Source: Acidobacteriota bacterium
Lineage (GTDB): Bacteria > Acidobacteriota > Terriglobia > Acidiferrales > UBA7541
DNA: 64,000 nucleotides
NCBI GenBank assembly: GCA_003225295.1
Contig: QHYZ01000081.1
Span: 62,001 to 126,000, forward strand
Reading direction: 5' to 3'
Shown: positions 20,798-32,603 of the stretch, one piece after another
How the letters are laid out: each line of letters begins with the position of its first letter
Numbering within the stretch: the first letter of the stretch is position 1
The notes under the pieces: generated by a model
The model's input: the letters and a program-made list of their open reading frames with translations, nothing else
Databases searched by the model: none
Told to the model about the DNA's origin: nothing
Program-made: the position numbers and the translations under genes

Positions 20798-23440
20798 ATG
20801 CCTCTCCCTCCGGGCACACATTTTGGCCCTTATGAGATTACCGGCCTGCTCGGTTCTGGCGGAATGGGCGAAGTGTACCGCGCCCGCGACACGCGGCTGG
20901 AGCGCACGGTCGCCATCAAGATTCTTCCCGCACACCTATCCTCGGATCCCCTTCGCAAGCAGCGATTCGAGCGTGAAGCGAAGACCATTTCCAGCTTGAA
21001 TCATCCGCACGTCTGCACTTTGCACGACGTGGGCTCGCAGGACGGCGTCGAGTATCTCGTGATGGAGTGCGTAGAAGGAGAGACGCTGGCGAAGCGTCTG
21101 GAGAAAGGAGCGCTGCCGCTGGAGCAAGGGTTGAAGTACGGTGCGGAGATTGCGGGCGGGCTGGACAAAGCCCATCGCAGCGGCGTGGTCCATCGCGATT
21201 TGAAGCCCGGCAACATCATGCTGACAGCGACAGGGGTGAAGCTACTGGATTTTGGGCTGGCGAAGGAGGTCGTTCCGCTTGCCAGCGGAGCCACGATTAC
21301 CGCGGCAGCGCAAAGTTCGCCGGTTACAAAGGAGGGAACAATCATTGGAACGTTCCAGTACATGTCGCCGGAGCAGGTGGAAGGGAAAGAACTGGATGGG
21401 CGCAGCGATATTTTCTCGCTGGGCGCAGTTTTGTACGAGATGGTGACGGGGAAGCGAGCGTTTGAAGGCAAGACGCAGTTAAGTGTGGCTTCTGCAATCC
21501 TGGAAAGAGAGCCGCTCCCGATCACTTCTATCAAGCCGCTTACTCCGCTGGCGCTGGATCATGCGGTGAAGAAATGCCTAACAAAAATACCAGATGAGCG
21601 CTGGCAGAGCGCGAGTGATTTGGCCAGCGAGTTGAGGTGGATCACCGAAAGCGTCGGGCAAGCGACGGGTCCGGCATTCGAGGAAGCACCAGGAAAAACG
21701 AGGAAAAGAGCAGCTTGGCTCATCGCCGGTGTGCTGGCGGGGGCCGCCATCGCCGGGGCCGTTCGGTGGCCAAGCCCCAAACCGCCTGAAGAAACAATGT
21801 ATTTTCCCGCGCCGATGCCGTTTTCCGCCCGTGACCTTGCTATGGCTCCTAACGGGCACGCTATTGCGGTAATCGCGTATCTGGAGTCCGCGCAGAGGAA
21901 TGCGCTGTGGATTTACGAGCTGGGATCACGGAGCGCAAGAAACCTCGCCGACACCCAGGGCGCCAGCTATCCGTTTTGGTCGGCTGACGGACGATCTCTG
22001 GCGTTCTTTGCCGATGGAAAGCTGAAGAGGGTGGAAGTTTCAGGCGGTCCGGTGCAAACGGTGTGTGATGCGCCGTCGGGCCGAGGAGGCACCTGGAACA
22101 AGGACGGTGTAATCGTCTTCACACCAGATGCGCGGTCGGGCGTGGGGCTGTATCGCGTCTCAGCTTTGGGCGGAACAGTCGCGCCAGTCAGCAAGCTGGA
22201 TACGAGTCGTGGAGAATTGAGTCATCGGTGGCCCATGTTTCTGCCCGACGGAACGCACTACCTGTATATGGCAACCAATTTCGCGGGGCAGAAGGGCGTT
22301 GATGCCATTTTCGTGGGTTCACTGGACTCCATTGAGAAACGATTCGTCGTGGAAGCCATGGCAAACGCGGCCTATGCCGCGCCAGGCTATTTACTGTTTT
22401 ACCGAGACAAGGCTCTGCTCGCCCAACGATTCGATGTGAAGCGCCTCGCTTTGATCGGGGAACCAACAACTATTCTGAACGATATTCAGTACCAGCCGCA
22501 GGTCAAGAGGGCGGTATTTGGGGCCTCCGACAAAAGCCTGCTGGCCGCTCAGAGCGGGAGTGGGGTTGCCCTTTCGCAACTCGCGTGGTTTGACCGCCAA
22601 GGGAAAGGGCTGGGAACGGTTGGAAAACCCGATGTGTATGGCAACGTATTCATAGCTCCTAGCGGAAAATCGGTGGCCGTAAGTATGACGGACATCGCGA
22701 GCCAGAATACCGACATCTGGACTTATGATTTGCAACGCGCTAGCGCCAAGCGGCTTACCTTCGATCCCGCCGCTGACTCCGTGCCCATCTGGAGTCCGGA
22801 TGCCGGGCGGTTGGTCTTTGCCTCTAACAGGACCTCCTTTAACGACCTGCAATTGAAGAACTCCGACGGCGCGCAAGAAGAGATGAGTATCTTGCATTCG
22901 GGCATTGATAAGTTTCCGAATGACTGGTCCAGGGACGGGAAATACATTCTATACACTCAAGACACGGACTTAAGGTTCCTAACTCTCCCGGAGCTGAAGA
23001 GCAGCTTGTTCCTGAAAGCGCCTTCCGTTCTCAGGAACGGCCAATTCTCGCCCAATGGGAAATGGGTGGCCTACGCATCGAATGAAACCGGAAAATGGGA
23101 AATTTACGTAACCTCCTTCCCGGAACCAAGGGGCAAGTGGCAAGTCTCGACGGGAGGAGGCGAACAGCCGCGGTGGAGAGGCGACGGGAAAGAGCTATTC
23201 TACCTTTCGTCGGACGACAAGATGATGGCCGCGCCAGTAACGACGGGGGCCAATTTCGATGCCAGCACGCCGGTTGCACTTTTCCAAGCGGCTCCCCGAC
23301 AGCCAGTCCCAATCTATGACCTCTTTGTTTATGACGTGAGCCGGGACGGGCAGCGATTTCTGATCATTACGGAAGTGAAACAGGCAGAGAGCGCGCCGAT
23401 ATCCATCGTTCTGAACTGGACCGCAAAGCTGAACAAATGA
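20798..23440 (+). CDS. Ser/Thr protein kinase with PD40/TolB-like beta-propeller
   Basis: An 880-residue Hanks-type kinase. The glycine loop is GSGGMGEVYRARD, the ATP lysine is Lys41 in VAIKIL, the catalytic loop is HRDLKPGN near residue 132, then LLDFGLAK and SPEQVEGKELDGRSDIFSLG. A membrane segment (WLIAGVLAGAAIAGAV) near residue 310 links the cytoplasmic kinase to a roughly 550-residue region of PD40/WD40-like repeats (FWSADGRSLAFF, IWSPDAGRLVFASN, FSPNGKWVAYASN), expected outside the membrane. Such kinase-propeller fusions are abundant in Acidobacteriota and are thought to sense extracytoplasmic ligands; the signal is unknown. Confidence 0.93.
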   Translation: MPLPPGTHFGPYEITGLLGSGGMGEVYRARDTRLERTVAIKILPAHLSSDPLRKQRFEREAKTISSLNHPHVCTLHDVGSQDGVEYLVMECVEGETLAKRLEKGALPLEQGLKYGAEIAGGLDKAHRSGVVHRDLKPGNIMLTATGVKLLDFGLAKEVVPLASGATITAAAQSSPVTKEGTIIGTFQYMSPEQVEGKELDGRSDIFSLGAVLYEMVTGKRAFEGKTQLSVASAILEREPLPITSIKPLTPLALDHAVKKCLTKIPDERWQSASDLASELRWITESVGQATGPAFEEAPGKTRKRAAWLIAGVLAGAAIAGAVRWPSPKPPEETMYFPAPMPFSARDLAMAPNGHAIAVIAYLESAQRNALWIYELGSRSARNLADTQGASYPFWSADGRSLAFFADGKLKRVEVSGGPVQTVCDAPSGRGGTWNKDGVIVFTPDARSGVGLYRVSALGGTVAPVSKLDTSRGELSHRWPMFLPDGTHYLYMATNFAGQKGVDAIFVGSLDSIEKRFVVEAMANAAYAAPGYLLFYRDKALLAQRFDVKRLALIGEPTTILNDIQYQPQVKRAVFGASDKSLLAAQSGSGVALSQLAWFDRQGKGLGTVGKPDVYGNVFIAPSGKSVAVSMTDIASQNTDIWTYDLQRASAKRLTFDPAADSVPIWSPDAGRLVFASNRTSFNDLQLKNSDGAQEEMSILHSGIDKFPNDWSRDGKYILYTQDTDLRFLTLPELKSSLFLKAPSVLRNGQFSPNGKWVAYASNETGKWEIYVTSFPEPRGKWQVSTGGGEQPRWRGDGKELFYLSSDDKMMAAPVTTGANFDASTPVALFQAAPRQPVPIYDLFVYDVSRDGQRFLIITEVKQAESAPISIVLNWTAKLNK

Positions 23441-23569: not shown

Positions 23570-24886
23570 CTATTTGTGACGCATGTCGACGGGGGCCCGC
23601 GTCCGGTCCAGAGGAAACACCTGCAGTTGCCATTTGACCGGGACCGACGCTGGCAGGTAGCAGATGGTTTTGTCGCACGCCTGATACTCAAGCTTTCCCG
23701 TAATCGTGAAGATTTTCCCATCTTTCCCAAGCGAGCCCCAGAACTCTGACCCCGAGCTCACTTTCACATCCTGGTTGATGCGCAACGTCCCCTCGAAGAC
23801 GGGTACGCGTTCCTTGATCGCAGGCAAATAGAGGGTCTTGGACGGCGGGTAAACTGCCGATTTGAGCTCCAGTTGTGGGATAGGATCAATCACCAGCTGA
23901 ATAGCTTTATAACCCTGTGTCCCGGGCGCATAGACATGCACCTCCGGGGGCAGCCGCACTTCGGCAACGAGAGTGACGCGAGTACCGGGAACACCTACGG
24001 GATCGGATTGTTCGAGAGCCAGTTGAAGATGCGGGGCTTCGACCGTGTCCGTTATTTCCTGGCCCAATTCAGGGAAAAGCTTGGCAATAATACTATTTCC
24101 GGTAAGCCGCTCTCGGTATTTCGCTTCGAAGAACTTTTCTCGAATGAAGCCGTTGGTATCAATGAAAAAAAATCCAGGGCGGGCAAAGCCCTTCTGCATA
24201 CCAGTAGCTTCGGTATTGAGGACCCCATAGGCCCGGATGGTCTTCGAGTCAGGATCCGCGAGCATGGGGTATTCGAGTTTGTGTCGGTCAGCAAAATACT
24301 TCAGGATTTCTTCCGAGTCGTAGCTAATGGCCGCCAGCCTGACCCCTTGCTTTTCGAATCGCGGGATTGCGCTTTGCAGCTGGACCAGCTGCCCTTTGCA
24401 GAACGGTCACCAGTCCGCTGAGCGGAAGAAGAGAAGAACCGTTCCGTTCGTTCCTTTCAAACTATCGAGAGTCTGTATCTCGCCAAACTGGTCGCGAGCC
24501 GAAAAAGCAGGAGCCTTTTGGCCGACCGCGAGTCCAATCGACATCAACTCGATGGAAGCGATCCTAATCGTATCGTCATCGAGAGTTCCCCGGACGGTCA
24601 CCGTGTCTCCCAGGTGAGCGCTTACCGATGCCTGCGGCTCAATGCCGTACATGACCCGGTTCGTATCGTCATACAGCGACAGCTTCGCACCCGGCACATT
24701 TTTGGTGCACTCGGGGGATTCGGCAAAGGCTTCGTCTGCGTTGCAGCTGCTAGACACCAGGACGCCGGACCACGATCCGGGCTTTGTGGTGTTCTGTCCA
24801 GCCACTGCGAGTGGAGTTATAGAAAAAAGCGGCACCACATAGAGGAAGAAGCGCTTACGCAAAGAATCAGTTCTGGCCGTCAGCAT
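23570..24886 (-). CDS. Secreted selenocysteine-type peroxiredoxin / DsbD-alpha fusion
   Basis: One frame from ATG 24886 to TAG 23570, read through an in-frame TGA at 24409-24407, gives 438 residues. Parts in order: a signal peptide; a small beta domain with a Cys pair (about 35-105); an AhpC/TSA (peroxiredoxin/thioredoxin-fold) domain (about 110-260) with FFRSADW-U-PFCKGQL; and a C-terminal DsbD-alpha-like domain with YQACDKTICYLP. The TGA (residue 160) replaces the first Cys of the CxxC motif and Cys163 is kept. Sequence similarity and reading frame continue without shift across the TGA, and a SECIS-like hairpin follows at once. AGGAAG supports the start. It is likely a periplasmic thiol-peroxidase or disulfide reductase. 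A nonsense mutation is the alternative, but the hairpin and the exact Cys position argue for selenocysteine. Confidence 0.85.
24376..24409 (-). promoter_or_regulatory. Bacterial SECIS element after the in-frame TGA
   Basis: On the coding strand, 15 nt after the TGA, comes GCAGCTGGTCCAGCTGC (24392-24376), a perfect 7-bp inverted repeat around GTC. The apical loop thus presents GGUC, the core that SelB reads in the E. coli fdhF element. GGUC occupies nt 21-24 after the UGA here, against 19-22 in fdhF. The hairpin lies within the coding sequence, as expected in bacteria. Confidence 0.75.
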
Positions 24887-25029
24887 CAATTCGCTTCCTG
24901 CTTGGATCGGCGGGCATGGTACGCCTGACAGTCTCCGCGCATGCGTCTCCCAGCTAAACCTGCCCAGACATATTAGTGGGTCTTCGTGCTATACGGAAGA
25001 TAGGAAGTAACCGGCCGACTCTCGCGCAG

Positions 25030-25827
25030 CTAGCTCACTTCCGTGAGGGTGCGAATCTGCGTTTCAAGAGCTTGATTATATTGCCGCTCGATCTGCAGTT
25101 CCGTTTGGAGTTTCTTTACCAGAAGGTCCAAATGAGCAATTTCCACACGAAGTTTCTGGACGTCGGCTACTGTCGGAGCAGACCGAACCGAGGCAGCCAT
25201 CGATTGTTGGGGGTCGTAGTGTGGCTGCAAGGGTTGCCGTGGAGTGAAGGCCTCGGCAAGTGCTCGTGGCCAGGCAGATTCCGGCGTGGCCGCGGCAGGT
25301 GGTGGAGGCGCCACGGGGCGGGGCGCTACCGGAACTGGAGGCGGGGGAAAAAGAGTGCTCAAAGCGTTTGAAGGTGTTGCGCGTTCAGCCGCGGGTGCGG
25401 GCGTTCCGCGTTTCGGCTCTAGGAGGCTCTTCACGCGCGCAATCAATTCCTGTGGCTGAAAGGGTTTGCGAATTAGTTCATCAGCTTTTACCGCAACCGC
25501 TTTGTCGGCGACGCTCTTATTGACCACGCCGGACATCAGCAGGACCGGCGTTTGACAGAATTCCGGATGCTGCTTGATTTGGCTGCACACGGAGTAGCCG
25601 TCCTGATCGGGCATGATCACGTCAGTGATCACCACGTCGGGGCGGTTTTGCTCGAATTGTGCCATCGCCGAGGCCGCGTCGGCACAAGTAATCACGTTAA
25701 TATTCTCGCGGCGAAACGCGATCTTGATGACTTCGCGCATCGTGGCGCTGTCGTCGATGAAGTAGACGGTAGGTGTCCGTTTGGCAGGAGCTTCTCCCAG
25801 CGGCGGAATGGTCATCGCTTCGCTCAT
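25030..25827 (-). CDS. Receiver protein with Pro-rich linker and coiled-coil tail
   Basis: A 265-residue response regulator. The receiver domain (about 18-135) keeps the acid pair in YFIDDSATMR, the phosphoacceptor Asp in VVITDVIMPDQDG, and Lys in IRKPFQP. A long Pro/Ala linker follows, then a helical C-terminus (VQKLRVEIAHLDLLVKKL) likely to form a coiled coil. No DNA-binding domain is present. It is the last gene of chemosensory operon 1; its ATG overlaps the previous stop (ATGA). Confidence 0.85.
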   Translation of the reverse strand: MSEAMTIPPLGEAPAKRTPTVYFIDDSATMREVIKIAFRRENINVITCADAASAMAQFEQNRPDVVITDVIMPDQDGYSVCSQIKQHPEFCQTPVLLMSGVVNKSVADKAVAVKADELIRKPFQPQELIARVKSLLEPKRGTPAPAAERATPSNALSTLFPPPPVPVAPRPVAPPPPAAATPESAWPRALAEAFTPRQPLQPHYDPQQSMAASVRSAPTVADVQKLRVEIAHLDLLVKKLQTELQIERQYNQALETQIRTLTEVS

Positions 25828-26597
25828 TGCGCTTCCTTGTCCGCCATGTCACGCGTTCCTTCGTCAAATTCGCGCATGGCATCCATCATAAGGTCGGTGG
25901 CCGAGCGCAGCACGGTGCGCTGTGACGACCTAGTTCCGTAGGTAAATTTGTAGACGCCTTCGTTGGTGTTTCCACAGCTCTTCAAAATGTGAATCACGGC
26001 TTCATCGCCAAACAGATTGCCGCACTCCGCGTGGGCGATCTCTCCCGCGTCGTAGAACAGCACCCCGTCGGTCGCGCTTGCGTTGATGTGCAACGCGCCC
26101 GTCTGGTGTGCGTGCCCTAGCATCTGCATGACGCCCGTGAGGTCGTGGTGCGTCAAATTGCCGCTGAGGCTTGTGTCTGACTGGGAAAGCATCTGCGTGG
26201 GTTGAAACCCCTCTGCTTTGCTGACGATGATCTGTTTCACATGCGCGGCAATGACCGCGGGTTGCCTGTTGCGGTCGATGTAATCGTCGCAGCCCGCCTG
26301 AAATGCTTCCATCAACGCGCGCTGGCTTCCGTCGCCGAGTGCGATAACAGGCAGATTGGCATTTTTTGAGTCCGCGTGAATGATTCTGGCAATCTCCAGC
26401 GCGCCCATCTCCCGCATATTCGTCGCGCAGAGAATAGCGGATGGCGCATCGTATTCAAGCGTAGTAAGCGCGAAAGCCGCTTGGGTACTGGAGACGACCT
26501 CAAACCCTTCGCGCTTCAATGCATCGCCTAGGCGCTTTGCAAAATACACGTTGCTGTCGATGAGAAGAACCTTGACGGCACGTCCGGCGGGAATCAT
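25824..26597 (-). CDS. Degenerate receiver fused to DUF4388
   Basis: A 257-residue protein. The N-terminal domain has the receiver fold (VKVLLIDSNVYFAKRLGDAL), but the phosphoacceptor Asp is replaced: ILCATNMREMG occupies the place of LLDxxMPxxDG. The partner acid pair is reduced to one Asp. The C-terminal half (about 145-250) matches DUF4388 (SGNLTHHDLTGVMQMLG, then TGALHI). DUF4388 proteins often act in gliding or chemosensory signalling. It is probably not phosphorylated and works as a scaffold (inference). It overlaps neighbours on both sides by 4 nt. Confidence 0.75.
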   Translation of the reverse strand: MIPAGRAVKVLLIDSNVYFAKRLGDALKREGFEVVSSTQAAFALTTLEYDAPSAILCATNMREMGALEIARIIHADSKNANLPVIALGDGSQRALMEAFQAGCDDYIDRNRQPAVIAAHVKQIIVSKAEGFQPTQMLSQSDTSLSGNLTHHDLTGVMQMLGHAHQTGALHINASATDGVLFYDAGEIAHAECGNLFGDEAVIHILKSCGNTNEGVYKFTYGTRSSQRTVLRSATDLMMDAMREFDEGTRDMADKEAQ

Positions 26598-27073
26598 GAC
26601 TGCGCCTCCGGTCGTTGCCGCCCCGCGGCTTCCGCGAGTGCTCGCTCGGGGCCAGGCGTGAGCGTGTCGATATTCAAGACTTCGATTACGTCACCGTCAT
26701 GCGATAGCCACCCGGCGACGTGAGGCGCATCGGATTCAACTGCCGCGGTCATCTCCGCATTGATCAGTTCGCATTCACCAGTGACCGGGATGGCCACCCA
26801 TTCCTTGTGTGCTTCGTAGTTGCGAACGACGATGAGGTAAAAACGGCGAGACGTCAAGCGCTTCCCCAGCAGCATTTCCGAAACGTCGCAGACCGGAACG
26901 ATCCGGCCACGTCGCAGGATCACGCCTTCCAGTTTCGGTGTTCGGTGTGGAAAACGAAAAACGCGGCTGGGGGCCACGAGCTCGGCAATCTCTTTCGCCG
27001 AAATGGCAAACCGCCGTTCGCCCAGCCGCAGCAGGACGAACGATTGCAGTTCGAGTTCGGTCGATACCGTCAT
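26594..27073 (-). CDS. CheW-like coupling protein
   Basis: A 159-residue single CheW domain. ELQSFVLLRLGERRFAIS opens the SH3-like fold, followed by VAPSRVFRFPHRTPKLEGVI and RGRIVPVCDVSEML, the classic CheW core. The long frame extending to 27700 is the antisense side of neighbouring genes, so the ATG at 27073 is used; it overlaps the preceding CheW-like gene by 4 nt. Second of two adjacent CheW-type genes, probably linking receptors to CheA. Confidence 0.88.
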   Translation of the reverse strand: MTVSTELELQSFVLLRLGERRFAISAKEIAELVAPSRVFRFPHRTPKLEGVILRRGRIVPVCDVSEMLLGKRLTSRRFYLIVVRNYEAHKEWVAIPVTGECELINAEMTAAVESDAPHVAGWLSHDGDVIEVLNIDTLTPGPERALAEAAGRQRPEAQS

Positions 27074-27603
27074 TGCGCGCAGCTTGTCCCCTCTGGATCC
27101 TCGCTTGCGAGTTTGTCCGCTTGCAAAAGAGCGGCATCGAGCAAAGCCAATTCTTCGGGTGACAAAAACCCTTCCGGATGCACCACCGGTACGACCGTCT
27201 GATCGAGTGCCGTCAGTCCGCGGTACCACTGCCGTTCTTCGTGGCAGAAGGAGAGTGGAAGAGCCTGGAGCCGCGACATAGTCGTCATCTTCTCGATGCC
27301 ATCGATCAAGAGGGCCGTGCGCGTCTGGCGCAGCACGAATAGCTGTGCTCCCTCCGCCGCATGCAATCCAAAATGCATGGCGCCGTTGACAATGAAAAGC
27401 GACCTGTCCCCACGCCGCAGGACGTGGCGAACTTTTCGAAGTCCGGGGGCACTGATTTCGGTCGCAGCGCCTGACATGCTGTCCGCGCTGCGCACTTCTT
27501 GCACCGAAGCTGAAGAGATGGCGAACAATTGTCCGCTGACACGGAAGAGAACGATCTGTTCCGTCCTTGCCGGGGTCGTCTTTGCTGGGGCCGCCAACCG
27601 CAT
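27070..27603 (-). CDS. Divergent CheW-like protein
   Basis: A 177-residue protein with a weaker CheW signature: EQIVLFRVSGQLFAISSASVQEV, then a basic segment, ALLIDGIEKMT, and a C-terminal VVPVVHPEGFL in place of the usual IDxxxL. The start ATG lies in the cheB stop (TAATG). The atypical core suggests a specialised coupling or competing adaptor protein. Confidence 0.78.
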   Translation of the reverse strand: MRLAAPAKTTPARTEQIVLFRVSGQLFAISSASVQEVRSADSMSGAATEISAPGLRKVRHVLRRGDRSLFIVNGAMHFGLHAAEGAQLFVLRQTRTALLIDGIEKMTTMSRLQALPLSFCHEERQWYRGLTALDQTVVPVVHPEGFLSPEELALLDAALLQADKLASEDPEGTSCAQ

Positions 27604-28727
27604 TAGCGAACTCCCGCGGGCGTTGTGCGGCAGATTCCGAGGACGCGCTTTTCGATGGCGGGGTAAATATCGTCGATGGAGAGCACCTGATCGACGGCAC
27701 CGGTTTTGATGGCCTCGGCAGGCATGCCGAAAATCACGGACGTGGCCTCGTCCTGTGCCAGCACCAGCCCGCCCGCTGTCTTGATGGCCTTCGCTCCCTG
27801 GGCTCCATCGTTGCCCATGCCGGTTAGAATGCCCGCAATGCTCAGTGGGCCGGCGAAGGCCGCAACCGATTCCATGGTAGCGTCAATACTCGGCAAATAG
27901 CCGTTAATTCGGCCGCTGGTCCCGTCAAGCTGGATTCGACCCGTCGGGGTAATGCGCAGATGCTGGCCGCCCGGACAGATGTAGAGTGTTCCCGGCTGAA
28001 GCGACTCATTGGCTTCCGCCTCTTTCACGCGGATTCCAGTGAATTCGGCGAGCTGCGTGGCGTACTGCGTCGTGAATGCCGCGGGCATGTGCTGCACCAG
28101 AATTACCGCGGCAGGGAAGTCTCCGGTGAAACCCGGCGCGATGCGCATGACGGTGGCTGGCCCGCCTGTCGACGCTGCCAGCACGACTATCGGGAAGCGT
28201 TGGTCGAGCCCGGACATAGGCGAGGGACGGACGCGCACCGAGGCTGGTGCCGGAGTCTTGGATCCATTGGCATTCTGAATTGTCAAGGCCAGGCGTGACG
28301 CCGTGCGCACCACGCGCACTTTGGCCGCCATGCGCACTTTGCGCAGGAGCTCTTCTTTCACACTCTGCATGTCGAGGTCGATGGCGCTGGAGGGCTTGGC
28401 GACAAATTCAATCGCACCGAGTTCCAGTGCGCGAAGGGTGCTGGCTGCACCTTCGCGTGATTCAGAGCTGACGATGACGATCGGCCGCGGATTCGTAGTC
28501 ATGATTTCCGCGGTGGCTTGGAGTCCGTCCACGTGAGGCATATTGATGTCCATAGTGATGACATCGGGCTTGAGCGATTCCGCCAGCGCAACGGCCTCCC
28601 GGCCGTCTTTGGCGTTGCCCACAACCTGGAGTTGTTCGTCAGCGTTGAAAATCCCTTCGAGGACCTTGCGCATAAACAGGGAATCTTCCACGACGAGCAC
28701 GCGAATCTTTTTGTTGGGGGTCGCCAT
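27603..28727 (-). CDS. cheB: Chemotaxis methylesterase CheB (operon 1)
   Basis: A 374-residue receiver-methylesterase that removes methyl groups from glutamates of MCPs and is activated by phosphorylation. Receiver: VVEDSLFMRKVL, DVITMDINMPHVDG. Methylesterase triad: Ser in VVLAASTGGPATV, His in VQHMPAAF, Asp in LTGMGNDGAQG. It starts 7 nt after the cheA stop. Confidence 0.94.
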   Translation of the reverse strand: MATPNKKIRVLVVEDSLFMRKVLEGIFNADEQLQVVGNAKDGREAVALAESLKPDVITMDINMPHVDGLQATAEIMTTNPRPIVIVSSESREGAASTLRALELGAIEFVAKPSSAIDLDMQSVKEELLRKVRMAAKVRVVRTASRLALTIQNANGSKTPAPASVRVRPSPMSGLDQRFPIVVLAASTGGPATVMRIAPGFTGDFPAAVILVQHMPAAFTTQYATQLAEFTGIRVKEAEANESLQPGTLYICPGGQHLRITPTGRIQLDGTSGRINGYLPSIDATMESVAAFAGPLSIAGILTGMGNDGAQGAKAIKTAGGLVLAQDEATSVIFGMPAEAIKTGAVDQVLSIDDIYPAIEKRVLGICRTTPAGVR

Positions 28728-28734
28728 CGTTTGT

Positions 28735-31722
28735 TTACCCCACCGGCGCGACGGGGCGCGGCGCCTCCGTTCCTATGAGTTGTTCGACCGCCGCGATCAG
28801 TTGATCCTCCTGGACCGGCTTGGTCAGGAATGCCGCGGCGCCTTCCTTCATCGCCCGATCACGATGCTTTGCCCCCGCGCGCGACGTAACGACCATCACG
28901 GGAATTCGCCGCGTCGAGGGGCTCTGGCGCAATTGCACCATCAATTCGTAGCCGGTCATGCGCGGCATTTCGAGATCGGTTATGACCAGATGGCAGCCGT
29001 GCTGCGTCACCAGTTCGGCGGCTTGGAGTCCATCCGCCGCCAGTTCCACCCGGTATCCGTTCTTCTCCAGCATTCGGCCGACGAATTTGCGCACGCTGAT
29101 GGAATCGTCGGCCACCACGATCACGCGCTCTTGCTCGACGCGGTCGATGGCCTCGGAAGGAATGCTTCCGCGCGCAATGGCCATCGAGCCCGGCGCAAAG
29201 ATTCGCGCGGCGCTGGCGCTTGCCTGTATCGGCCGGTGCTCGCTTGGTTCTGTCGCCACCATGCGGTTCAGGTCGATCAAAAGAATAAGGCTGCCATCAG
29301 GCGCGATGGTCGTGCCAGGAAAGAGTTTCACGCGGCGCAGGTACTCGCCCAGGTTCTTGATGACGATTTCGTCCTTGCCCAGGACTTCTTCCACGACCAG
29401 GCCGATCTTCCGGTTTCCGGCATTTGCCACCACCATCCGGAAGTATCCATTGATCGGTTCAAGCGGCGGCAAACCTAGATAGGTATCCAATCGCACTACC
29501 TCGGTGACGACGTCGCGCACCTTGGTCAGCAGTTTTCCGCCGATGTCCTCGATTTCATCGGCGCGCAGGCGGCGGATTTCCTCAACGACTGCCAATGGCA
29601 GCGCGAAATTGGTCGTGCCGCAACGCACGAACAGAGCCGGAGAGATAATCAGGGTGAGGGGAACCTTGAGCGTAAACTTCGTGCCCTTGCCGCTCGTGCT
29701 CTGGATATCGATTTCGCCGTTCAGCGTGTTCAGGTTTGCCCGCACCACATCGAGCCCGACTCCACGCCCGGCGAGTTCCGTTTTGACGGGTGCAGTCGAG
29801 AACCCCGGATGGAAGAGTATCTCCCGAAGATCGCGTTCCGTCAGCCGGTCGGCGGTCTCCTCGGAAAGAAGCCCGCGTTCGATCGCGCTTTGCTTCACGC
29901 GCTGGTAATTGATTCCACCGCCGTCATCTTCGACCTCGATGTAAATGTGGTTCCCGCGGTGGTAGGCGCGCAGCATGATCTTCCCGGTGGACGATTTGCC
30001 AGCGGCGACGCGGTCGCTGCCGTGCTCGATGCCGTGCGCCACGGAGTTGCGCACCAGATGTACGAGCGGATCGGAAATCTGCTGAATGATATTGTTGTCC
30101 AGCTCGGTTTCGCTTCCGGAAAGATCCAGCTCGACATGCTTGCCGGTTGAGTTTGCCGCATCGCGAACGGCACGCGACAATCGCGAATACAGCGTGCCGA
30201 TCGGGACCATTCGCGCCGCGGTAATCTCGTCTTGTAGATGATGCGCCAGCTTCGTGAATTCGTCGATATCGCCTTCGACGCGCCCGATAAACCCTTCCAG
30301 TTGCGAGAGTACCTCGTTGACGTCCGCCGAGATCTCGGCCATCGACCGCGACAAAATATTGAAGTCGTCGTAGCGATCCATTTCCAATTCGCTGAATTCG
30401 GACCAGAACGACGTGTCGCCTGCCGCGGCACTCGTAAGCATCTTTGGAGTGGGCTCGGGATTCCAGGGCCCCTGGGCGGTGCGGTTGTTGCTGATGCGGT
30501 TAAATTCGTACTTTTCCTGAAACTCAGCGACTTTGCCCTGCAGCCGCTCTTTTGAAAAGCTCAGCGTATCGACGAGCTTTTCGAGTTCCGCCACGCGGCC
30601 GACCATGCGCGTACGATTAATGACCAATTCACCGACCGTATTCATCATGCGGTCGAGTCGGGCCAGCGCAATGCGAACCGATTTGACGGTCGAAGGGCCG
30701 CCTGCCGGTTGTTGTTTCGCGGCCTTCTTTGCCGGTCCCGCGATTTGTGATGTGGATTCTGTTCCTTTGCTATGTCGAGGCTCCGCTGCCCCAGCTGATT
30801 CGACAGAGGCCTCGGCTTCTTCAGGTTCAAGCGGAGCAAACTCTCTAATGCGGCCCAGCAGGGAATCGACGCCAGTCCGCATTTCAACTTCGTCGGCCCA
30901 CTGCCGGTGGAGCGTCTTCTTCAGAGCGTCCACGGACTCAAGACACAAATCCACCACTGCAGGCGATGGTTCAATCTCTCCATCGCGCAAACGGCCGATC
31001 AAATCCTCGACGCAATGGGCAATCGCTCCCAGTCTCTTGAGCCCGACTTGCGCCGCCGAACCCTTGACCGTGTGAATCGCGCGAAACAGCTTGTTTATTT
31101 CTTCCGGATTGTTATTGCCTTCCAGAGAAATAAGGCAATCACTGACTACCTGTAGATGCTCCTCCGCTTCCGGCTGGAAGAATTCAAGGATTTCGTCCGG
31201 CACCTCATCGTCCGGCGGCAGCGCGTCAAAGTAAGAGCCCGTTGGTGCTGCCGCAACGGGCGCGTTGATCTCCTCGGCGGCAAACCGTTCACGCGCTTCC
31301 GGCTGGGAAAGGTTCAGCGGGGGCGGTTCCGTGGGGAATGCGAAGCGATAGCGCTCCTTGAAATCGGCAATATCATCGAGAGTCTCTTTGCCGGTGTCGC
31401 TAATTTCCAGGAGATCGGTTTCCAGCAGCGAAATTCCATCCGAAAGAAATTCCGTCAACGGTCCATGTAGATCGCCGCCGAGAGGCGCGTTGAGCGCGTA
31501 TTGAAAGACGTGTGCCAGTTTCCCGGCAATTTCGGAGAATCGCGGAAATCCATAGCTCGCCGACGTGCCGCCCAACGTGTGGGCCGAGATGTAAAGCCGT
31601 TCCAGGTCTTCTCGTCGCGGCGCCACGTCCTGAAGCACGCTCACGTATTCCCGCAAATATTGCAGGTTCTCCGAGGCTTCTTGGAGGAACACCTCGATGG
31701 CTTCGCGGTCCAACGTGCTCAC
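28735..31722 (-). CDS. cheA: Hybrid CheA histidine kinase with C-terminal receiver (ChpA/PilL-like)
   Basis: About 995 residues. Two Hpt domains: the first has SAHTLGGTSASYG, the second has AIHTVKGSAAQVGL with the normal phospho-His. An unusually long dimerisation helix region follows, then the ATPase (HLVRNSVAHGIEHG, VEDDGGGIN, GRGVGLDVV), a CheW-like domain and a receiver (VVADDSISVRKFVG, VITDLEMPRMTG). The architecture resembles ChpA of twitching systems rather than flagellar CheA. The GTG at 31722 forms a GTGA overlap with the cheR stop; the earlier frame start at 31791 would overlap by 73 nt. Confidence 0.93.
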   Translation of the reverse strand: MSTLDREAIEVFLQEASENLQYLREYVSVLQDVAPRREDLERLYISAHTLGGTSASYGFPRFSEIAGKLAHVFQYALNAPLGGDLHGPLTEFLSDGISLLETDLLEISDTGKETLDDIADFKERYRFAFPTEPPPLNLSQPEARERFAAEEINAPVAAAPTGSYFDALPPDDEVPDEILEFFQPEAEEHLQVVSDCLISLEGNNNPEEINKLFRAIHTVKGSAAQVGLKRLGAIAHCVEDLIGRLRDGEIEPSPAVVDLCLESVDALKKTLHRQWADEVEMRTGVDSLLGRIREFAPLEPEEAEASVESAGAAEPRHSKGTESTSQIAGPAKKAAKQQPAGGPSTVKSVRIALARLDRMMNTVGELVINRTRMVGRVAELEKLVDTLSFSKERLQGKVAEFQEKYEFNRISNNRTAQGPWNPEPTPKMLTSAAAGDTSFWSEFSELEMDRYDDFNILSRSMAEISADVNEVLSQLEGFIGRVEGDIDEFTKLAHHLQDEITAARMVPIGTLYSRLSRAVRDAANSTGKHVELDLSGSETELDNNIIQQISDPLVHLVRNSVAHGIEHGSDRVAAGKSSTGKIMLRAYHRGNHIYIEVEDDGGGINYQRVKQSAIERGLLSEETADRLTERDLREILFHPGFSTAPVKTELAGRGVGLDVVRANLNTLNGEIDIQSTSGKGTKFTLKVPLTLIISPALFVRCGTTNFALPLAVVEEIRRLRADEIEDIGGKLLTKVRDVVTEVVRLDTYLGLPPLEPINGYFRMVVANAGNRKIGLVVEEVLGKDEIVIKNLGEYLRRVKLFPGTTIAPDGSLILLIDLNRMVATEPSEHRPIQASASAARIFAPGSMAIARGSIPSEAIDRVEQERVIVVADDSISVRKFVGRMLEKNGYRVELAADGLQAAELVTQHGCHLVITDLEMPRMTGYELMVQLRQSPSTRRIPVMVVTSRAGAKHRDRAMKEGAAAFLTKPVQEDQLIAAVEQLIGTEAPRPVAPVG

Positions 31723-32603
31723 GCCCGTCCCTCCGCCACGAGTTCCGGCTTCTGCAATTCGTCCGCTGTCGGCTTCCGGTAGAGAATGCAATCGTTCAAA
31801 ACGATGGCCTGGAACTTCACCGGCATCTTGGAGATCGACTCCGAGTGACCGAGGAACAGATATCCGCCCGGTTCCAGCGTGTCGTAAAACCGTTGCACCA
31901 GCGAACGCCGGCGCTCTTCCGAAAAATAGATCAGCACGTTCATGCAGAAAATCATGTCCATGCGGCCAACGTACACCGTCGCAGCAAGGTTCATTTGTGC
32001 AAACGAAACCATCTTGCGCAGCCGTGGCTTTACCTGATGTCCGCCGCTTACCTCCGTAAAGTGGTTGGCCAGCTGTCTTTCGTTCACGCTGGCAATACTG
32101 CGTCCTTTGTAGGTTCCCCGTTCGGCGTGCTTCAGGGCGTGCCTTCCGACATCGGTTGCAAGTATTTCCACGTTCCAGGCATCCGCGAAGGACAGCGAAT
32201 CCGCGATGGTGATGCCGATCGAATAGGGCTCTTCACCCGTTGAGCAACCGGCGCTCCAGATCCTGAGCGTCCGGGGATTGTTCCAGAACTTCTTGGTATG
32301 CAACTCGGGCAGCACGCGCTTCTCGAATGCTTGGTACACGCCGGGATACCGGAAGAAGCTGGTTTCCTGCGTCAGCAGCCGCTCCAGTAGGCCCTCGTAT
32401 TCGATGTTGGATTTGCGCATAGCCCGGAGGAGTTCCGTGCCGCGCTCGATTCCTTTTGCGCGCAGATGTTCCCGCACACGTGTAGAGAAGAACCGCTCGC
32501 GCGATTCATCGAAGCAAATTCCGGTCCGCTCTTCGATCAACATGCGAATTTCGCTCAGCTCGTGTTCGCTCAGCCCTTCCACATGTCCCTGGCGTTCGTT
32601 CAT
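31719..32603 (-). CDS. cheR: MCP methyltransferase CheR (operon 1)
   Basis: A 294-residue SAM-dependent methyltransferase that methylates glutamates on MCPs. It has the N-terminal helical CheR domain (IRMLIEERTGICFDESRE), the NEXTSFFR-like TQETSFFRYP, the SAM loop IWSAGCSTGEEPYSI and MIFCMNVLIYFSEE. It lies between mcp and cheA and overlaps cheA by 4 nt. Confidence 0.94.
   Translation of the reverse strand: MNERQGHVEGLSEHELSEIRMLIEERTGICFDESRERFFSTRVREHLRAKGIERGTELLRAMRKSNIEYEGLLERLLTQETSFFRYPGVYQAFEKRVLPELHTKKFWNNPRTLRIWSAGCSTGEEPYSIGITIADSLSFADAWNVEILATDVGRHALKHAERGTYKGRSIASVNERQLANHFTEVSGGHQVKPRLRKMVSFAQMNLAATVYVGRMDMIFCMNVLIYFSEERRRSLVQRFYDTLEPGGYLFLGHSESISKMPVKFQAIVLNDCILYRKPTADELQKPELVAEGRA

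Follow-up and report, generated by a model that had tools for sequence, protein, structure and literature searches.

Is the TGA in the middle of a minus-strand redoxin gene a stop codon or a codon for selenocysteine (Sec), and what kind of redox protein would the gene encode? The gene is located at 23570-24886 of the window, by which we mean the whole 64-kb stretch of DNA that was analysed. An earlier note on this DNA had read it as a secreted, peroxiredoxin-like selenoprotein.

Reading frame and codon 160

Retranslation of the minus strand from 24886 to 23570 yields a single coding frame of 438 codons with TGA taken as Sec, which ends with a TAG stop codon at 23570-23572 and agrees in extent with the full-length orthologues. 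As had been noted, the only internal stop is the TGA at 24409-24407 (codon 160), and no frameshift was found. Alignment with the orthologues places this codon at the first position of a UxxC motif, within the segment LLFFRSADW-U-PFCKGQL. The ATG at 24886 is a plausible start codon, because a likely ribosome-binding site (AGGAAG, 24894-24899, minus strand, assigned by eye) is found 7 nt upstream. A plain ORF finder returned two pieces of 160 and 231 amino acids and dropped residues 161-207 (47 residues, including Cys163), bearing out the expectation that gene callers would split the gene.

The same TGA is found in orthologues from other genomes, which share 62-97% identity over nearly the whole length. 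In a set of 41 genomes, comprising the window's own genome and 40 relatives, the gene was found with the TGA kept in 11 genomes besides its own, all from the same genus or class and within this range of identity. The domains on either side of the TGA have dN/dS ratios far below 1, and by this comparison the gene is under purifying selection both before and after the codon. With the TGA kept by orthologues and dN/dS this low, the frame is not open by chance. Scanning 84,980 species genomes revealed full-length acidobacterial orthologues (L050-L070) plus a shorter one (L071). Six query peptides were used, one of them with Cys at position 160, which favours Cys forms among the distant matches; the close orthologues are also reachable via the other peptides. 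The shorter gene (L071, 5001-5977) lacks the N-terminal domain and is disturbed in its C-terminal frame, and may be decaying or misassembled. In addition, a second, partial gene copy was observed about 7 kb from a full copy on contig QHYJ01000081.1 (L058 and L076).

Codon 160 is TGA in about 20 other Acidobacteriota assemblies. Within L050-L071 it is TGA throughout except in L065 and L067, which carry TGC, and it is TGC or TGT in the more distant acidobacterial genes (L072-L075, L077 and L078) as well as in stand-alone redoxins from other phyla. Thus the Cys/Sec alternation anticipated at position 160 was seen. Of 396 genomes surveyed from the whole phylum, 25 contain the coding pattern ADW-TGA-P[F/Y]CK, 7 contain its Cys version, and none contains both. 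In the tree, L065 and L067 nest within the Sec clade with a branch support of 90/92, which is under the strict threshold. This nesting points to a Sec-to-Cys replacement in the lineage of L065 and L067.

The SECIS-like hairpin and the Sec-decoding machinery

A SECIS-like hairpin, GCAGCUG-GUC-CAGCUGC, was located by folding and comparison at 24392-24376 on the minus strand, where the earlier note had expected one downstream of the TGA. Its stem begins 14 nt past the UGA. Counted from the U of UGA, it spans +18 to +34, with 21 nt between the UGA and the loop. It has a 7-bp stem and a 3-nt loop with G at the first position, and the 38-nt segment has a folding energy of -11.9 kcal/mol. The published limits for bacterial SECIS elements are a loop of 3-9 nt, a stem of 4-16 bp, a spacing of 16-37 nt, a G within the first two loop positions and a minimum free energy of -7.5 or below (PMC13188914), and the hairpin lies within every one of them. 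The apical GGUCC also matches the pattern N1-G-[G/U]-N-N2. Its stability does not stand out from that of shuffled sequences (z = -0.92) and is not significant by itself, and therefore the case for a SECIS element is comparative.

Among 16 distinct Sec sequences, 91% of the pair cells form, a share that falls to 3-47% if the partner strand is shifted. Compensatory changes were found at synonymous sites, G21-C31 to A-U in four sequences and C22-G30 to U-A in one, a covariation support made up of few independent changes. In the Cys forms only 57% of the pair cells form, less than the shuffled mean, and L078 alone among them retains the loop G; in L065 and L067, GUC has changed to AUC. Over codons 163-172 the codon conservation of invariant residues is 0.776 versus about 0.41-0.66 elsewhere, depending on degeneracy class, a value reached in 0 of 20,000 resamplings. 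By these comparisons the Sec orthologues preserve the hairpin, and in those with Cys it decays. The opposite outcome raised in the earlier note, that homologues might all have Cys with no conserved hairpin, does not hold, as the Sec forms keep the hairpin with compensatory changes.

All four components of Sec decoding that the note had named for a search were found in the window's own genome (8.13 Mb, 96% complete). The tRNA-Sec gene (C56:2457-2551, 68.7 bits) has the anticodon UCA in the loop CUUCAAA, and SelB (contig C137, 359 bits), SelA (contig C5, 574 bits) and SelD (contig C197, 345 bits) are all present, the last with one in-frame TGA of its own. Within the window itself, the tRNA search found none, the Rfam run gave no match, and a scan for other UGA-joined genes gave no second credible redox motif. 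Elsewhere, one contig (G010:C2) carries a pair of strong tRNA-Sec matches (1112064-1112158 and 1115713-1115807), separated by about 3.6 kb.

The machinery was also compared between Sec and Cys hosts. Both Sec hosts tested (L066 and L070; genomes G439 and G440) possess SelA and SelB. In the hosts of the close Cys orthologues L065 and L067 (G433 and G434), there is no SelB above the cut-off and no match for SelA; their best score with the SelB profile is about 196 bits, short of the required 242 and in the range that EF-Tu would give. Neither SelA nor SelB exceeds the cut-off in three Cys hosts that are more remote (G435, G436 and G437). For each of these Cys hosts, with genome completeness not reported, joint absence of SelA and SelB by chance is unlikely. 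One further Cys host, the genome of L078 (G438), possesses both, a point on the other side. For the two close Cys hosts, Cys at position 160 tracks the absence of SelA and SelB.

These findings leave little room for other readings of the TGA. A pseudogene, a nonsense mutation or a sequencing error would account for the stop codon that breaks the frame, the sole point in its favour, and we give it a negligible chance. The TGA shared by the orthologues and the low dN/dS to either side of it exclude sequencing error and pseudogene; in addition, the 438 codons contain no frameshift or further stop. The misreading of TGC or TGT at 24409-24407, against which the earlier note had cautioned, is likewise countered by the same TGA in independent assemblies. 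Equally hard to credit is that the TGA encodes another amino acid through an altered code or a suppressor, or separates two proteins. The full Sec machinery with its UCA tRNA argues against an altered code, as do the genes of L066 and L069, which terminate with TGA as an ordinary stop, and the alternative residue, which is Cys rather than Trp and is seen where SelA and SelB are absent. The ORF finder does report two ORFs, but the second would start inside the redoxin fold, past Cys163. A selenium-gated dual output, in which the full protein is made with selenium and a secreted N-terminal fragment of 159 residues with its own role is made without it, is consistent with the position of the UGA after a complete DUF5818-like domain and with paralogues of this domain as separate small proteins (matches to residues ~26-116). 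It is nonetheless very improbable, as the fragment would break off within the redoxin domain and carry an unfolded tail, and the Cys orthologues have abandoned such a gate with no other change. With the TGA kept in many assemblies, the machinery present and the hairpin conserved, the comparative evidence upholds the selenoprotein reading: the gene at 23570-24886 almost certainly encodes a selenoprotein with Sec at residue 160.

Domain organization and active site

The N-terminal 31 residues (24794-24886, minus strand), with RKR, a hydrophobic stretch and AVAGQ, are likely a signal peptide, and the N-termini of the orthologues resemble it, which suggests that the protein is exported. Two further domains that the earlier note had not named flank the redoxin. 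The N-terminal one is a DUF5818-like domain (residues 35-117; 24536-24784, minus strand), so assigned from profile matches that are weak in this protein and better in its relatives. The Sec protein itself scores 17.9 bits against DUF5818 (PF19135), under the cut-off of 27, and 15 relatives give matches at E<=0.01, the best being 2e-6. Cys48 and Cys60 are conserved in all relatives with this domain. The AlphaFold2 model has a pLDDT of 88 and a pTM of 0.81; it folds the DUF5818-like domain with high confidence, and low confidence is restricted to residues 1-31.

The AhpC/TSA redoxin domain comprises residues 118-260 (24107-24535, minus strand) and matches PF00578 over residues 121-250 with an E-value of 2.9e-32. 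Among solved structures, AhpE, Bcp and ResA come closest to it. At the C-terminus, residues 296-413 (23648-24001, minus strand) form a DsbD_N-like domain, which scores 33.9 bits against PF11412 (Pfam cut-off 25) and is matched at E<=0.01 in 26 of 37 family members. A PDB sequence search with this C-terminal domain gave no useful match to a solved structure. All intact relatives with the domain share Cys404 (23677-23675) and Cys409 (23662-23660) as invariant residues; L071, in which the domain is interrupted, lacks Cys404.

When the protein is aligned to AhpE and Bcp with HMMER, Sec160 corresponds to the Thr/Ser of TxxC, and Cys163 (24398-24400, minus strand), the second residue of UxxC, to the peroxidatic Cys. 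The position of the peroxiredoxin Arg is occupied by Pro237, which is invariant. A CxxC motif with a cis-Pro is characteristic of thioredoxins and cytochrome maturation proteins, whereas TxxC with Arg is characteristic of peroxiredoxins (PMC2757866). The segment FFRSADWUPFC does not match the canonical PxxxT/SxxC motif, as it has no Pro and carries U/C in place of T/S, and the active-site Arg is replaced by Pro237. The pairing of PF00578 with UxxC that marks Prx-like thiol:disulfide oxidoreductases is present. Because Sec lies at the Thr/Ser position and Pro237 replaces Arg, the site belongs with those of thiol-disulfide oxidoreductases; as judged from the alignment, the protein combines a peroxiredoxin-like fold with a UxxC site like that of thioredoxin/ResA and is not a canonical peroxiredoxin. 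The earlier description as peroxiredoxin-like thus fits the fold but not the active site.

A true Sec peroxiredoxin, with Sec160 or Cys163 as the peroxidatic residue and hydroperoxide removal as the main role, would be in keeping with the AhpC/TSA domain and with AhpE and Bcp as the closest solved folds, and Sec could reduce peroxides even without a full peroxiredoxin site. However, the change of Thr/Ser to Sec/Cys and of the catalytic Arg to an invariant Pro resembles thioredoxin, CcmG and ResA, and in the known Sec peroxiredoxin the motif is TxxU, which puts Sec at the other position. We consider this role unlikely, and the motif favours thiol-disulfide oxidoreductase chemistry over that of a dedicated peroxidase with reasonable confidence.

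By domain and motif the protein belongs to a kind already catalogued as "Prx-like thiol:disulfide oxidoreductase, PF00578, UxxC" (PMC9312934, PMC13188914). Such selenoproteins (UxxC/UxxU; PMC1794560, PMC9312934, PMC13188914) likewise have an AhpC/TSA domain with Sec first in UxxC, a bacterial SECIS and Cys homologues, but here N-terminal DUF5818-like and C-terminal DsbD_N-like domains are added. The selenoprotein catalogues, NCBIfam and the open-licence papers searched yielded no instance of this three-domain fusion, which looks undescribed, although the catalogues sort by domain and motif, and absence from them is not proof of non-publication. No NCBIfam model scores above its cut-off. PrxU (TxxU; NF040737, 29 bits versus a cut-off of 270) also combines the peroxiredoxin fold class with Sec, but its Sec is peroxidatic, whereas in the acidobacterial protein Sec occupies the Thr position. 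ResA/CcmG-type oxidoreductases are exported and have a comparable site, CxxC with cis-Pro on a related fold, but with Cys for Sec and no DsbD_N fusion; the Sec protein scores 50 bits against NF002854, under the family cut-off of 170. Like the DsbD alpha domain (PF11412), which it matches above the Pfam cut-off, the C-terminal domain has an invariant Cys pair, but the pair is C-x4-C and its partner is a redoxin rather than the DsbD membrane domain. Stand-alone redoxins from Colwellia, Hyphomonas, Opitutaceae and others share a nearly identical RSADW(U/C)P(F/Y)CK block, but are Cys forms (RSADWCPFC) of about 190 amino acids without the flanking domains. A plasmid search gave weak redoxin matches only, none of which spans most of the query.

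Proposed relay and occurrence in Acidobacteria

Based on these comparisons, we propose a possible working cycle for the protein. SelB bound to the hairpin would deliver Sec-tRNA(UCA), and the UGA would be decoded as Sec160, as the comparative evidence indicates. Sec160 and Cys163, set in a peroxiredoxin/ResA-like fold, would make up the UxxC redox centre. From the motif, the Sec selenolate may attack the disulfide or oxidised thiol of a partner, and Cys163 may resolve the intermediate to give a selenenylsulfide. The fused DsbD_N-like domain would then probably re-reduce the Sec-Cys bond via Cys404 and Cys409, with electrons that may come from a membrane CcdA/DsbD-type reductase. From its sequence the three-domain selenoprotein is probably periplasmic, and the redoxin would act outside the cytoplasm on partner proteins or small oxidants. 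The chance that electrons are relayed via the DsbD_N domain is about even. As a whole, the picture of an extracytoplasmic selenium relay running from a CcdA/DsbD-type reductase through a DsbD-alpha-like domain to Sec160-Cys163 in one chain, in which loss of Sec decoding leads to a Cys swap and SECIS decay with the rest kept, is put forward tentatively.

A split DsbD system is present in the same genome (G000:C168:91500-97500; L147). It consists of a CcdA-thioredoxin fusion of 519 amino acids with WATWCDPC and, about 1.4 kb beyond it, a free-standing DsbD_N protein (178 amino acids, YQACSTELC); a carbonic-anhydrase-like ORF lies between the two. No gene neighbour is conserved across the selenoprotein family, and no dedicated substrate or partner is indicated. 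A chemosensory cluster adjoins the gene at 25030-31791 (minus strand), an order common only to L050 and L051, the two nearest relatives. Named by eye, it comprises a CheA-like kinase with a response-regulator domain (28735-31791), CheB (27603-28727), two CheW-like genes and two response regulators. On the other side, a serine/threonine protein kinase of 880 amino acids with a repeat-rich C-terminal part (20798-23440, plus strand) is convergent with the selenoprotein gene.

Many more redoxin-domain matches with one in-frame TGA were observed in the genus and class (for example G000:C237:2632-3081), suggesting that these Acidobacteria have several Sec redoxins. Aerobic bacteria rarely retain selenoproteins according to a 2026 review (PMC13188914), against which an apparently common selenoprotein in these uncultured soil Acidobacteria may be notable. 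The gene represents a clear family of selenoproteins from common soil bacteria, and ordinary gene callers would cut genes of this type in two. Its close relatives, which differ between Sec and Cys at one codon according to whether SelA/SelB and the SECIS hairpin are present or lost, provide a natural experiment, and the three-domain fusion suggests an electron path to an extracytoplasmic selenoenzyme that is open to test.
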